From assembly GCF_026967805.1 (NCBI RefSeq), contig NZ_JAPVBG010000002.1, forward strand, positions 1,190,238 through 1,254,237: a stretch of 64,000 nt of DNA, written 5' to 3'. A program made the position numbers and the translations under genes. How positions within the stretch are numbered: the stretch's first letter is position 1; each line of letters starts with the position of its first letter. Shown here in pieces: positions 8,878 through 20,252 of this stretch. The stretch is from Blastococcus sp. VKM Ac-2987. Its GTDB lineage: Bacteria; Actinomycetota; Actinomycetes; Mycobacteriales; Geodermatophilaceae. Under the pieces are notes generated by a model. That model saw only the letters and a list, made by a program, of their open reading frames with translations. It was not told where the DNA came from and searched no databases.

Positions 8878-8924
8878 CGGCGGGCCGGAGCGGGGCGCAC
8901 AGTGTGGTCGTGCCTCGCACCAGC

Positions 8925-8969
8925 ATGCTCGCCGACGTCCGCACCCGCGGCGTCCTCGTAATCGCGTAG
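8925..8969 (+). CDS. ilvB leader peptide (MLADVRTRGVLVIA)
   Basis: A 14-residue ORF ends in VLVIA followed by TAG. Four consecutive branched-chain codons, GTC CTC GTA ATC, precede the stop, including GTA, which is unusual in this GC-rich genome. The TAG is the first part of the following hairpin. In-frame GTG codons at 8904 and 8910 could extend it to about 19 residues. Actinobacterial ilvB leaders of this kind are known. A regulatory role, not a product role, is expected. Confidence 0.75.
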   Translation: MLADVRTRGVLVIA

Positions 8970-8997
8970 CGCGTCCGGTCACCGACCGACGCGCTGA

Positions 8998-9029
8998 CCC
9001 TTCGTGCCTCGTGGCACGAGGGGTTTTTT
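8998..9029 (+). terminator. Attenuator terminator of ilvB
   Basis: An 11-bp stem (CCCTTCGTGCC with GGCACGAGGGG, one G-T pair) closes a TCGT loop and runs directly into six T residues. It lies 84 bases before the ilvB ATG and after the leader-peptide stop, so it cannot be the end of a normal operon. Confidence 0.88.
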
Positions 9030-9113
9030 GTTGGCCGTGACCTGCCGCACAGCGAGCACGCCGCCCGTCGCACCAGCCCGTACCACCGCCGCAAGGCACA
9101 GGAGATCCGCGCG

Positions 9114-12618
<3,505 letters not shown>

Positions 12619-17062: not shown

Positions 17063-17671
17063 GTGGACCTCTCCTGGGACGGGTCCCGCCGGGCGTTCGC
17101 CGACGCCGCGGGGTGGTTCGTCGCGGTCGTCGCGGTCGTCGACGACCGCTGGACGGCGCCCGGGCTGGGGGAGTGGGACGTGCGCGCCCTCACCGGCCAC
17201 ACCAGCCGGTCGCTGCTGACGGTCGAGGAGTACCTCGCCCGGCCGGCGCGGACCGTCGAGGTGGCCTCCGCCGCCGACTACTTCCGGGCCACCCGGGCCG
17301 TCGCGGCCGGCCCGGGGGTGGCGGCCCGGGGACGGGCCGCCGGCGAGGCCCTGGGCGACGACCCGGCCGGCGCCGTGGCGCGGATCGCGGCCCGGGTGCG
17401 GCCGCTCGTGGACGCCTGCGACGGGACCGAGCTGCTGACCACGGTGGCCGGCGGCATGCGGCTGGCCGACTACCTGCCGACGCGCACGTTCGAGCTCGCC
17501 GTCCACACCGCCGACCTCGCGGTGGCCCTCGGGCTGCCGCCGGACGTACCCGCGGCCCCCGCGCGCCAGGCGCTGGCGCTCGCGGCCGAGCTCGCGGTGG
17601 CCGACGGCTCGGCCGGTGCGCTGCTGCTGGCCGCCACCGGACGCGCGGCGGCGCCGCGCTCCGTCCTCTGA
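17063..17671 (+). CDS. DinB/maleylpyruvate-isomerase-like protein
   Basis: A 202-residue protein of the mycothiol-dependent maleylpyruvate isomerase N-terminal / DinB-like four-helix fold. The start SWDGSRRAFADAAGWFV, the His-containing GEWDVRALTGHTSRSLLTVEEYL and the late TFELAVHTADLAVALGLP carry the three His positions typical of the metal site. The substrate is unknown, and many such actinobacterial paralogues are only known to use mycothiol or remain uncharacterised. The GTG lies 9 bases after leuB, so it may be cotranscribed. It ends 150 bases before the cimA leader peptide. Confidence 0.72.
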   Translation: MDLSWDGSRRAFADAAGWFVAVVAVVDDRWTAPGLGEWDVRALTGHTSRSLLTVEEYLARPARTVEVASAADYFRATRAVAAGPGVAARGRAAGEALGDDPAGAVARIAARVRPLVDACDGTELLTTVAGGMRLADYLPTRTFELAVHTADLAVALGLPPDVPAAPARQALALAAELAVADGSAGALLLAATGRAAAPRSVL

Positions 17672-17823
17672 GCCGGCGTCAGCCCGCCGGAGGCTGCTCG
17701 CGCAGCAGGTCGCCGCCGGTGGGGATCACCGGGAGTGGATACCAGGCCGGGCACCGGTCCGTTGCCCGCTTTCCCGGAACAGGGGTGCCGCGCACCGCAC
17801 CTCCCGTGCTTTCATGGTCGGCG

Positions 17824-17856
17824 ATGCACACCAGCGGCACGATCATCATCGCCTAG
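17824..17856 (+). CDS. cimA leader peptide (MHTSGTIIIA)
   Basis: A 10-residue ORF with three consecutive ATC (Ile) codons just before a GCC-TAG end. It is in the place and form of an attenuation leader: its stop codon begins the first hairpin, and a terminator follows 28 bases later. The Ile-only content matches the downstream gene's pathway product. It looks unannotatable by size and would be missed by gene finders. Confidence 0.72.
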   Translation: MHTSGTIIIA

Positions 17857-17883
17857 CGCGCAGTCACCTCCCCGACTGCGCGC

Positions 17884-17911
17884 AGACCTCCCGTACCCGG
17901 GGGGTCTTTTT
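17884..17911 (+). terminator. Attenuator terminator of cimA
   Basis: A 10-bp stem (AGACCTCCCG with CGGGGGGTCT, one T-G pair) closes a TACC loop and leads into five T residues. It lies 35 bases before the cimA GTG. Confidence 0.85.
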
Positions 17912-17946
17912 CGTGTCCGGCCCTCTTGCCCTCCCCGGGAGACACC

Positions 17947-19533
17947 GTGAGCACCACCGAGCCCGACTTCCACGTCTTCGACACCACGCTGCGCGACGGC
18001 GCCCAGCGGGAGGGGGTCAGCTACTCGGTCGCCGACAAGCTGGCGGTCGCCCGGCTGCTGGACGAGATCGGGGTCGGGTACATCGAGGGCGGCTGGCCCG
18101 GGGCGCTGCCCAAGGACACCGAGTTCTTCTCCCGGGCACGCACCGAGCTGCAGCTCAAGCACGCCCAGCTGGTGGCGTTCGGGTCGACCCGCAAGGCCGG
18201 CGTCGCGGTGGCCGACGACCTGCAGGTCCGCGCCCTGCTCGACGCGCAGACCCCGGTGGTCTGCCTGGTCGCGAAGTCCGACGTGCGGCACGTGCGGGAG
18301 GCGCTGCGCACCACCCTGGAGGAGAACCTGGCGATGGTGGCCGACACCGTCGCCTTCCTCGTCGCCGCCGGCCGGCGGGTGTTCCTCGACTGCGAGCACT
18401 TCTTCGACGGCTACGCCGCCGACCGCGACTACGGGGTGCGCGTGCTGCAGGCGGCGTTCGACGCCGGCGCCGAGGTCGGCGTCCTCTGCGACACCAACGG
18501 CGGGATGCTGCCCATGGGCGTGGGCCGGGTGGTGGCCGACGTGCGGGCGCGGGTGAGCGGCCGGCTGGGCATCCACTGCCAGGACGACACCGGCTGCGCG
18601 GTGGCCAACACCCTCGCGGCGGTGGAGGCCGGCGTCACCCACGTGCAGGGGACGGCGAACGGCTACGGCGAGCGCGCCGGCAACGCCGACACGTTCGCGC
18701 TCATCGGCAACCTGGTCACCAAGATGGGCATCCCCGCGGTGCCGGCCGAGTGCATGCCCGAGCTGCAGCGGGTCAGCCACGCCATCGCCGAGCTGGCCAA
18801 CATCGCCCCCGACGACCACCAGCCGTTCGTCGGCGCCTCGGCGTTCGCGCACAAGGCCGGGCTGCACGCCAGCGCGATCAAGGTGAGTCCCGAGCTCTAC
18901 AACCACCTCGACCCGGCGGTCGTGGGCAACGACATGCGCATCCTGGTCACCGAGATGGCCGGCCGGGCCTCGGTCGAGCTGAAGGGCCGGGAGCTGGGTG
19001 TGGACCTCACCGGCCAGTCCGACGCCATCGGCCAGGTGGTGGACCAGGTCAAGGTGCTCGAGGCCGACGGCTGGTCGTTCGAGGCGGCCGACGCCTCGTT
19101 CGAGCTGCTGCTCCGCGCGCAGCTGCCCGACGCCCCGCCCCCGCTGTTCGCGCTGGAGAGCTACAAGACCTCGGTGGAGCACTGGGGCAACGGCGTCGTC
19201 GTCAGCGAGGCGACCGTCAAGGTGCACGTCGACGGGCAGCGGATCCTCAGCACCGGGGAGGGAAACGGCCCGGTCAACGCCCTGGACAACGCGCTGCGGC
19301 AGGCGCTGGTGCACCGCTACCCGCAGCTGGCGGACGTCTCCCTGGCCGACTACAAGGTGCGCATCCTGGGCTGGAAGGGCGGCACCAGCGCCACGACCCG
19401 GGTGCTCATCGACACCACGGACGGGCAGGGGGAGTGGACCACCGTCGGGGTGCACGCCAACATCGTCGAGGCGTCCTGGCACGCGCTGGTCGACGCCTTC
19501 GCCTACGCCGTCCTGCGCCGTCCTCAGCCGTAG
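17947..19533 (+). CDS. cimA: (R)-citramalate synthase
   Basis: CimA condenses pyruvate and acetyl-CoA to citramalate, giving a threonine-independent entry to isoleucine through LeuCD and LeuB. The 528-residue protein has the DRE-TIM motif TTLRDGAQREG near residue 14, metal ligands in HCQDDTGCAVANTLAAVEAG near 213, the GTANGYGERAGNAD segment and a C-terminal LeuA-like allosteric domain (from about 400). The N-terminal DGAQREG...GVGYIEGGWPG pattern separates CimA-type proteins from LeuA. The GTG at 17947 follows GGGAGA; a TTG at 17926 is the only alternative. It is a single gene behind an Ile-codon attenuator and overlaps the convergent gene by 10 bases. I recall no counterpart in the M. tuberculosis locus. 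Confidence 0.93.
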   Translation: MSTTEPDFHVFDTTLRDGAQREGVSYSVADKLAVARLLDEIGVGYIEGGWPGALPKDTEFFSRARTELQLKHAQLVAFGSTRKAGVAVADDLQVRALLDAQTPVVCLVAKSDVRHVREALRTTLEENLAMVADTVAFLVAAGRRVFLDCEHFFDGYAADRDYGVRVLQAAFDAGAEVGVLCDTNGGMLPMGVGRVVADVRARVSGRLGIHCQDDTGCAVANTLAAVEAGVTHVQGTANGYGERAGNADTFALIGNLVTKMGIPAVPAECMPELQRVSHAIAELANIAPDDHQPFVGASAFAHKAGLHASAIKVSPELYNHLDPAVVGNDMRILVTEMAGRASVELKGRELGVDLTGQSDAIGQVVDQVKVLEADGWSFEAADASFELLLRAQLPDAPPPLFALESYKTSVEHWGNGVVVSEATVKVHVDGQRILSTGEGNGPVNALDNALRQALVHRYPQLADVSLADYKVRILGWKGGTSATTRVLIDTTDGQGEWTTVGVHANIVEASWHALVDAFAYAVLRRPQP

Positions 19534-20252
19534 CGGGCGACGAAGTTCGCCAGCAGGCGCCCGGGGTGGGTCACGACCGCGGGCGTCAGCCGCCCGATGA
19601 CCGCCTCGAGCTCCGCCGGCGGGAAGTAGCCGGCGTGCTGGTAGATGCGCACCCGCTGCACGATCCCGGGGACGTCGAGCTCCGGGTGGAACTGGGTGGC
19701 GTAGACGTTCTGCCGCACCTTGAACATCTGCACCGGGCAGCCGGCCGACGATGCCAGGAGCACCGCGTCCGGTGGCAGCACCCGGCAGGCCTCCTTGTGC
19801 CCCACGAACGCCTGGAACCGGTCGGGCACCCCGGCCAGCAGGGGGTCGTCGCGGCCCTCCGGCGTCAGCGCGACCTCGACCGCCGACACCGGTTCGCCGT
19901 AGGTCCGGTCCACGACGCCGCCCCGGCGGGTGCCGAGCGTGCCGATGCCGTAGCAGGCGCCGAAGAACGGCCGGTCGCGCGCCACCACCTCGTCGAGCAG
20001 CGCGCCGACCTCGCGCTCGACCCGCACCTGGACGGCGGACTTCTCCGCGGGGTCGTCGCTGGAGTTGAACGGCCCGCCGCCCAGGAACACCCCGGCGTAG
20101 GCGTCGAGGTCCAGCGGCGGCAGGGGGCCGGCCTCCAGGCGGATCCGGTGCAGCCGCTCCGCGGGCAGGGCGGTGAACCGCAGGAACGAGGCGTACTCCT
20201 CGTCGGCGGCCTCGTCCTCCGGACGGGTGGAGAGCAGCAGGAACGGCAGCAC
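19524..20252 (-). CDS. Class I glutamine amidotransferase-like protein
   Basis: A 242-residue protein with the GATase class I fold. The nucleophile Cys lies in FFGACYGIGTLG, the catalytic His-Glu in ATQFHPELD, and the oxyanion-side Gly-rich FLGGGPFNSSDDP comes earlier. It stands alone without a synthetase domain, like GMP-synthase-related GATases annotated as glutamine amidotransferases of unknown partner. The GTG at 20252 is 8 bases after the stop of the upstream monooxygenase-like gene, so the two are probably one operon. Longer in-frame readings run through that gene in the wrong frame and are rejected. Confidence 0.8.
   Translation of the reverse strand: MLPFLLLSTRPEDEAADEEYASFLRFTALPAERLHRIRLEAGPLPPLDLDAYAGVFLGGGPFNSSDDPAEKSAVQVRVEREVGALLDEVVARDRPFFGACYGIGTLGTRRGGVVDRTYGEPVSAVEVALTPEGRDDPLLAGVPDRFQAFVGHKEACRVLPPDAVLLASSAGCPVQMFKVRQNVYATQFHPELDVPGIVQRVRIYQHAGYFPPAELEAVIGRLTPAVVTHPGRLLANFVARYG

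Follow-up and report, generated by a model that had tools for sequence, protein, structure and literature searches.

An isoleucine-codon leader and two abutting hairpins lie upstream of cimA

The window, a 64,000-nucleotide stretch of the Blastococcus sp. VKM Ac-2987 genome, carries a gene for citramalate synthase, cimA, that is preceded on the same strand by a short open reading frame (ORF) and two adjacent hairpins, here termed HP1 and T (Table 1). Threonine-independent isoleucine synthesis begins with CimA. A reading of the sequence alone had proposed a leader-peptide attenuator in front of this gene, with a perfect 10-bp hairpin beginning in the leader stop codon and a U-tailed terminator between a complete upstream gene and cimA. 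These features and the gene assignment are borne out, with cimA scoring above the TIGR00977 cut-off. The leader reads ATG CAC ACC AGC GGC ACG ATC ATC ATC GCC TAG, with the stop codon at 17854-17856; the run of three Ile codons is present as described, except that the peptide does not end on it, since one Ala codon stands before the stop.

HP1 starts at the G of TAG, and its arms (17856-17865 with 17874-17883) pair at 10 of 10 positions around the loop ACCTCCCC. The arms of T (17884-17893 with 17898-17907) are followed by TTTTT (17907-17911), the end of which is 35 nt from the cimA start. The complete same-strand ORF upstream of the leader (17063-17671) matches TIGR03083 and TIGR03086, in both cases below cut-off. 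Folding of the RNA from 17780 to 17960 gave z = -4.21, with none of 200 shuffles equally stable, and a terminator pattern scan returned three overlapping calls, all of one terminator, where 0.1 were expected. At gathering score, Rfam annotated three tRNAs only in the 64-kb window and nothing at the site, where two permissive matches fell far below their gathering scores.

Table 1 Features of the cimA and ilvB leader regions in the window.
Feature	Position	Strand	Details
Extended -10-like element, TG-C-TTTCAT	17807..17815	+	8 nt before the leader ATG; pattern match, start site predicted
cimA leader peptide ORF, MHTSGTIIIA-stop	17824..17856	+	sequence read directly
Three regulatory Ile codons, ATC ATC ATC	17842..17850	+	first lies 14 nt before HP1
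HP1, proposed antiterminator	17856..17883	+	10 bp, loop ACCUCCCC at 17866-17873, -19.8 kcal/mol
T, intrinsic terminator	17884..17911	+	10 bp, loop UACC, U-tract 17907-17911; linker to HP1 0 nt
GGGAG, likely cimA Shine-Dalgarno	17937..17941	+	read from sequence
cimA, citramalate synthase	17947..19533	+	TIGR00977, 618.9 bits (cut-off 450); GTG start
ilvB leader peptide, MPRTSMLADVRTRGVLVIA-stop	8910..8969	+	V-L-V-I codons (...GVLVIA-stop); read from sequence
HP1 of the ilvB element	8968..8995	+	inside the R2 match 8953-9032
T of the ilvB element, with U-tract	8996..9029	+	abuts HP1; read from sequence
ilvB, acetolactate synthase large subunit	9114..11000	+	NF005860, 1110.7 bits

The leader is probably translated from a leaderless transcript

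A pattern corresponding to the extended -10-like element of the window (TGN[TC]NNNNT, ending 5-8 nt before the leader start) occurs in 82 of 91 Geodermatophilaceae elements and in 52 of 57 other distinct elements, compared with means of 10.3 and 4.3 in shuffled controls (pooled, 134/148 vs. about 15). A Shine-Dalgarno-like word precedes the leader in 6 of the 148 distinct elements, and a scan of the site for sigma-70 consensus promoters found none. Judged by sequence, the leader transcript is probably leaderless and would start at about 17824, at or beside the ATG.

The element is conserved before cimA

Searches for CimA gave matches in all 23 genomes of the genus and in 102 of 112 genomes of the family, and the best 80 loci were kept from a further search of named genome contigs. 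Cases left out were the truncated cimA matches in two genomes (G031, G094) and the second piece of a match in a third (G033). The resulting 181 loci, from family and named sets that overlap, reduce to 167 distinct upstream regions. Ile codons, HP1 and T were found together by script in 151 of them and 14 gave nothing; in two further regions (L129, L157), which the script missed or misassigned, the element is present by eye, in addition to the 151. Counted by locus, it precedes cimA in 23/23 genomes of the genus, in 96 of 100 family loci whose upstream sequence was long enough (of 101 fetched, L126 fell short; absent from L164, L172, L176 and L178), and in 70 of 78 named loci (80 minus two too short), among them 12 Streptomyces loci (L103-L109, L111-L115). 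The sequences of L044, L054 and L126 end too near cimA to be judged. Recurrence of an Ile leader, HP1 and T in 151/167 distinct regions argues for more than chance.

Across the 151 elements, two to four Ile codons lie within the four codons before HP1, with ATC used 266 times, ATT 107 times and ATA never. In the loci without an element that were inspected, the upstream reading frame extends, by eye, nearly to cimA, which suggests an operon arrangement. In one locus outside the class (L227, genome G273), inspection by eye showed an Ile leader (VIIIP) upstream of two genes, the first leuB-like and the second aminotransferase-like. An attenuator placed at the front of such a leuB-like operon may account for the absence of one directly before cimA in operonic lineages.

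Both helices covary and the element reaches across the class

The alignments were non-redundant choices from the 151 elements (A1, 36 sequences; A3, 15 sequences; and a set of 41). Thirteen forms with a long HP1 (12 from Streptomyces and L100 from Yinghuangia) were left out of A1 to A3, and five of them entered the 41-sequence set. RNAalifold on A1 returned HP1 only, with short-stem terminators misaligned, and the cleaner A3 was used. In A3, 95.2% of cells are paired vs. 87.9% in shuffles, and 10 pairs have changed on both sides; none of 500 shuffles reached either value. The double changes fall in 7 of 10 pairs of HP1 and 3 of 11 pairs of T, five T pairs being invariant. The number of further pair types was unexceptional (18 vs. 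15.9 in shuffles, 51/500), and partners slid out of register were 37-59% paired. Among the 41 elements, the six outer pairs of HP1 are paired in 242/246 cells and the lower eight of T in 328/328. Both the HP1 and the T helix covary.

A covariance model built from A3 (R2), whose 15 cimA leaders carry the names of other families or of unplaced Actinobacteria and exclude Geodermatophilaceae, matched the window at 17840-17913 with 65.2 bits (E 1.4e-19, on a rough calibration). A further R2 match at 19977-20056 (+; 19.5 bits, E 4e-4) falls within an opposite-strand ORF and was treated as chance. In a sample of 148 genomes of the class, which may share species with the R2 training set (Geodermatophilaceae are absent from that set), R2 matched 96 genomes at E <= 0.01 and CimA matched 120. 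In 83 of these 120 genomes, representing 24 of 29 families, the element was located upstream of cimA at a distance of no more than 400 nt. The other 37 had no R2 match near cimA, including 14/14 genomes of family f16 and 13/13 of f21, and one of the 37 (G148) does have, by eye, a leader (MTSVAMIII-stop), HP1 and T. The sequence-only reading had proposed to align cimA 5' regions from Geodermatophilaceae and relatives, and to look for covariation of both hairpins and conservation of the ORF and Ile codons; ORF, codons and hairpins are conserved, covariation is present, and the conservation extends beyond those taxa.

In a sample of the phylum, R2 at a threshold of E <= 1e-4 matched 20 of 119 genomes, of which 15 lie outside the class. 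When 16 places from these 15 genomes were compared by tblastn with five reference proteins, ten lay with ilvB, one with cimA, one with leuA and four with none. The sole cimA case outside the class (L237) carries four Ile codons.

The breadth of this distribution bears on a simple reading of the locus, in which T is the terminator of the upstream gene and the leader a chance ORF without regulation. A complete same-strand ORF does lie upstream in the window. Against this reading, cimA is preceded by the element in 24 families, and the longest same-strand upstream frames, not all of which are necessarily genes, vary among ten distant loci (three with Aminotran_4, one with HTH, one with PD40 and five without a Pfam match). 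We give it almost no weight. Equally, a structured and conserved 5' leader of an isoleucine gene might be a ligand- or tRNA-binding riboswitch, either a T-box or a new class, that contains an ORF by chance. Rfam, however, gave no gathering match at the site or in 12 related loci, and conservation resides in the helices, the spacing and the codons, while the HP1 loop is as short as 3 nt in some elements and in Streptomyces extends to a long insert, so that no candidate aptamer is apparent. We consider a riboswitch very improbable.

Ribosome geometry favours HP1 as an antiterminator

Among the 151 elements, the first Ile codon lies 14 nt before HP1 in 104, 11 nt in 34, 13 nt in nine and 16-20 nt in four; the linker between HP1 and T is 0 nt in 132, 1 nt in 12 and 2 nt in seven; and the stop codon stands at -2 or -1 relative to HP1 in 127 and at +10 to +23 in 24. 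By convention, the leading edge of the ribosome was set at the first nucleotide of the A site plus 12. With this edge, a ribosome that has the first Ile codon in its A site covers no nucleotide of HP1 in 117/151 elements and 2 nt in 34/151, and one with the last Ile codon there covers 2-8 nt. With the stop codon in the A site, at least 11 nt of HP1 are covered in 151/151, despite the shifting position of the stop. That the stop position shifts while masking at the stop is constant is our main argument for HP1 as the structure that forms when isoleucine is short.

We consider it likely that the element is a ribosome-mediated transcription attenuator that senses the charging of Ile-tRNA and controls cimA, with HP1 as the antiterminator. 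In the proposed sequence of events, a ribosome would translate the ten-codon leader from a transcript that starts at or beside the ATG. When isoleucine is plentiful, it would reach the stop codon, its leading edge would mask the 5' strand of HP1, T would form and transcription would end before cimA. When isoleucine is short, a stall at the Ile codons would leave HP1 free, T would be prevented and cimA would be transcribed. We infer the direction of the switch from two things, the geometry and the way in which a biosynthetic gene would be expected to respond; most likely, cimA is switched on when the cell is short of isoleucine.

How HP1 would prevent T is a separate matter. The two hairpins share no nucleotide in 149/151 elements, and in the other two an extended HP1 overlaps T by 1-2 nt. 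In folding calculations on the 151 elements, T forms with a mean probability of 0.98 (minimum 0.95) when HP1 is formed, and the 5' arm of T, before its 3' arm exists, is paired with a mean probability of 0.02. A classical antiterminator that captures the 5' arm of T was sought with HP1 formed, and none was found. Because T forms in the presence of HP1 and the hairpins share no nucleotides, base pairing alone predicts no switch. Given this lack of sharing, we propose that HP1 excludes T physically: its helix would abut the base of T, so that the lower pairs of T could not close at the exit of RNA polymerase.

The 4-nt linkers of distant members speak against a strict form of such steric exclusion. 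Outside the class, where 14 of 16 elements were parsed, the linker is 0 nt in ten, 1 nt in two and 4 nt in one (L229), and L227 was misparsed; in total, three of the 16 have a 4-nt linker (L229 by script, L227 and L237 by eye), and that of L240 is 0 nt by eye. The spacing scripts left L206, L220, L237 and L240 unparsed; L220 and L237 were inspected by eye instead.

The failure to find a classical alternative structure is also what a mere pause hairpin would predict, with HP1 synchronising ribosome and polymerase and the leader acting through coupling or Rho; the short linker between HP1 and T and the constant spacing from the Ile codons are not obviously needed for that, and we regard it as quite unlikely.

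A more substantial alternative assigns HP1 the opposite role, as for Corynebacterium ilvB-II, for which an equivalent model has been published (PMC10272879). HP1 would be an anti-antiterminator, HP1 plus T would be the OFF state, and stalling at the last Ile codon would let the ribosome open the base of HP1, freeing its loop to pair with the 3' arm of T. The 2-8 nt of HP1 covered at the last Ile codon would suit this, and in the window the loop ACCUCCC can pair with GGGGGGU. Among 55 distinct loop/arm pairs from Geodermatophilaceae, shuffled loops did as well in only 2/300 trials. Masking the 5' arm of HP1 also lowers T below 0.8 in 13/151 elements, seven of them around Modestobacter sp. VKM Ac-2985 (g9). 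However, partner specificity is absent, with permuted loops pairing equally well or better in 495/500 trials, and 41 distinct pairs from outside the family show no enrichment (181/300), some loops being only 3-4 nt long; the 13 long-HP1 forms were left out of this test. With the 5' arm of HP1 masked, T exceeds 0.8 in 138/151 elements, and the window sequence keeps T as its minimum-energy fold. Moreover, HP1 is masked most at the stop codon, that is, when isoleucine is plentiful. We rejected pairing between the HP1 loop and T as a general mechanism, for want of partner specificity and of enrichment outside Geodermatophilaceae, and retain it as a rival that we think improbable.

In six loci of the Modestobacter sp. 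VKM Ac-2985 group (L046, L133, L140, L141, L145, L162), T falls to about 0.18 when the 5' arm of HP1 is masked. On these folding models, it is possible that in this group the HP1 loop captures the 3' arm of T as a lineage-specific second antiterminator.

Related elements precede ilvB, leuS, leuA and ilvA-like genes

Models of the cimA leader also found the ilvB element of the window at 8953-9032 (37.7 bits with R1 and 37.9 bits with R2, the latter at E 2.4e-10). A third R1 match in the same genome (23.3 bits, E 0.06) is, by eye, a leuS leader (L185; G000:C1:266617-266692, -) that encodes MTGRLLLLRPC-stop, with four Leu codons and the same abutting hairpins; its leuS was named from the opening residues of the protein.

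Class matches away from cimA numbered 58, including the ilvB element of the window, and 20 were fetched: eight before ilvB, five before leuS, two before leuA, three before ilvA-like genes, one before cimA on a split contig, and one other (L193). The reference leuA and leuS proteins score above NCBIfam cut-off, and the ilvA-like ones match threonine ammonia-lyase models best, below cut-off; all of these references were themselves taken from the fetched class set. Bacterial-type leuA is preceded by a Leu-codon version in L195 and L200 (family f11) and in L241. L193 (near 1602-1727, -, in G188) has an Ile-only leader, MFTPRIII, before an ORF of about 98 codons that by eye resembles an ACT-type regulatory subunit.

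The ilvA-like elements have just one Ile codon, 8 nt ahead of HP1, and are therefore weaker cases; they occur in 3 of 14 f16 genomes (L194, L196, L197). In f16, where cimA has no element, the switch may instead be placed at the other isoleucine entry, the threonine ammonia-lyase-like gene. Of the 23 elements in the related set, 21 were parsed (two unparsed), and 20 of these have a linker of 0 nt, including the ilvB element of the window and the leuS element of the same genome.

By sequence and layout, the cimA element belongs to a set of related attenuators, before ilvB, leuS, leuA and ilvA-like genes, with matching codons. More tentatively, and with less than even confidence, we suggest that these may form one widespread, modular class of minimal leaderless attenuators (cimA/Ile, ilvB/Leu-Val-Ile, leuA/Leu, leuS/Leu, ilvA-like/Ile), in which a non-overlapping antiterminator blocks T mechanically and the sensed amino acid is set by swapping the codons before the hairpin.

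Comparison with known attenuators

With an Ile-specific switch, the cimA branch would have a sensor to itself, in addition to the mixed-codon ilvB switch that the window also carries. Among the open-literature matches listed, we found no report on the control of cimA in Actinobacteria. CimA had no match in any of the 13 genomes listed for family f2, which we take to be the family of the corynebacterial and mycobacterial models, so the models that have been studied may have kept a cimA switch hidden.

In the classical trp-type attenuator of four segments, a codon-dependent stall decides which hairpin forms, and the antiterminator has a strand segment in common with the terminator. The cimA element would likewise depend on a codon-dependent stall. 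Unlike in the trp type, no 1:2 hairpin was seen, the two hairpins do not overlap and the element probably lacks a 5' leader before the ORF. With the ilvB/leuS type it has in common a run of codons for the sensed amino acid (here Ile), an HP1 that by geometry can be masked, a terminator before the gene and similarity to an ilvB element. The non-overlapping hairpins, mostly with no linker, pose the physical question of how one hairpin stops termination by its neighbour, and this mechanistic question is common to the whole ilvB/leuS kind.

The literature on these systems speaks on both sides of the codon-stall model. For Mycobacterium tuberculosis ilvB1, the same logic of stall and stop has been described, an LVVI-to-AAAA change abolished induction, and the direction of the switch is the one that we favour for the cimA element (PMC13236596). 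In Streptomyces coelicolor, changes to the codons of the ilvB leader are reported to be without effect, and mutants of the leuA leader to have behaved unlike classical attenuation (PMC1262725), results that count against a codon-stall model. For C. glutamicum ilvBNC, adjacent antiterminator and terminator overlap in their bases at GCC, and an anti-antiterminator hairpin has also been proposed (PMC11857589); by contrast, 149/151 cimA elements share no nucleotide between the hairpins. The ilvB-II motif (PMC10272879) resembles the cimA element in having P1 and a P2 terminator, a uORF over P1 and two covarying helices. Its P1-loop:P2a antiterminator is unenriched in cimA elements outside Geodermatophilaceae: complementarity between loop and the 3' shoulder of T can arise in the window and is favoured in that family, without partner specificity.

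The survey of Seliverstov and colleagues in 2005 (PMC1262725) describes trp, cys, leu/ilv and ileS elements and gives other amino acid pathways as without conserved structures; its text contains neither 'cimA' nor 'citramalate', although the gene may go under another name in older annotation. Of the eight leader peptides in the S. lividans table (PMC8079986), none stands before cimA, and 'cimA' is absent from the text. Open-literature matches listed in our searches, which do not extend to subscription papers, include no cimA attenuator in print, in keeping with the sequence-only suggestion that this is a new member. The Ile-only cimA element is unreported in the literature searched, and it is of the known actinobacterial ilvB/leuS attenuator kind. 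The leuS attenuators (PMC1262725; S. lividans leuL2, PMC8079986) have the same layout of HP1 and T, found in the Blastococcus genome with four Leu codons; they differ in carrying Leu codons and in acting on an aminoacyl-tRNA synthetase. Leaders of ilvB in Streptomyces, Mycobacterium and Corynebacterium likewise combine a short leader with branched-chain amino acid codons, a hairpin after the codons and an adjacent U-tailed terminator (PMC1262725, PMC13236596, PMC11857589). The cimA element is distinguished from them by the gene it would control and by codons for isoleucine only, instead of a mixture of Leu, Val and Ile.
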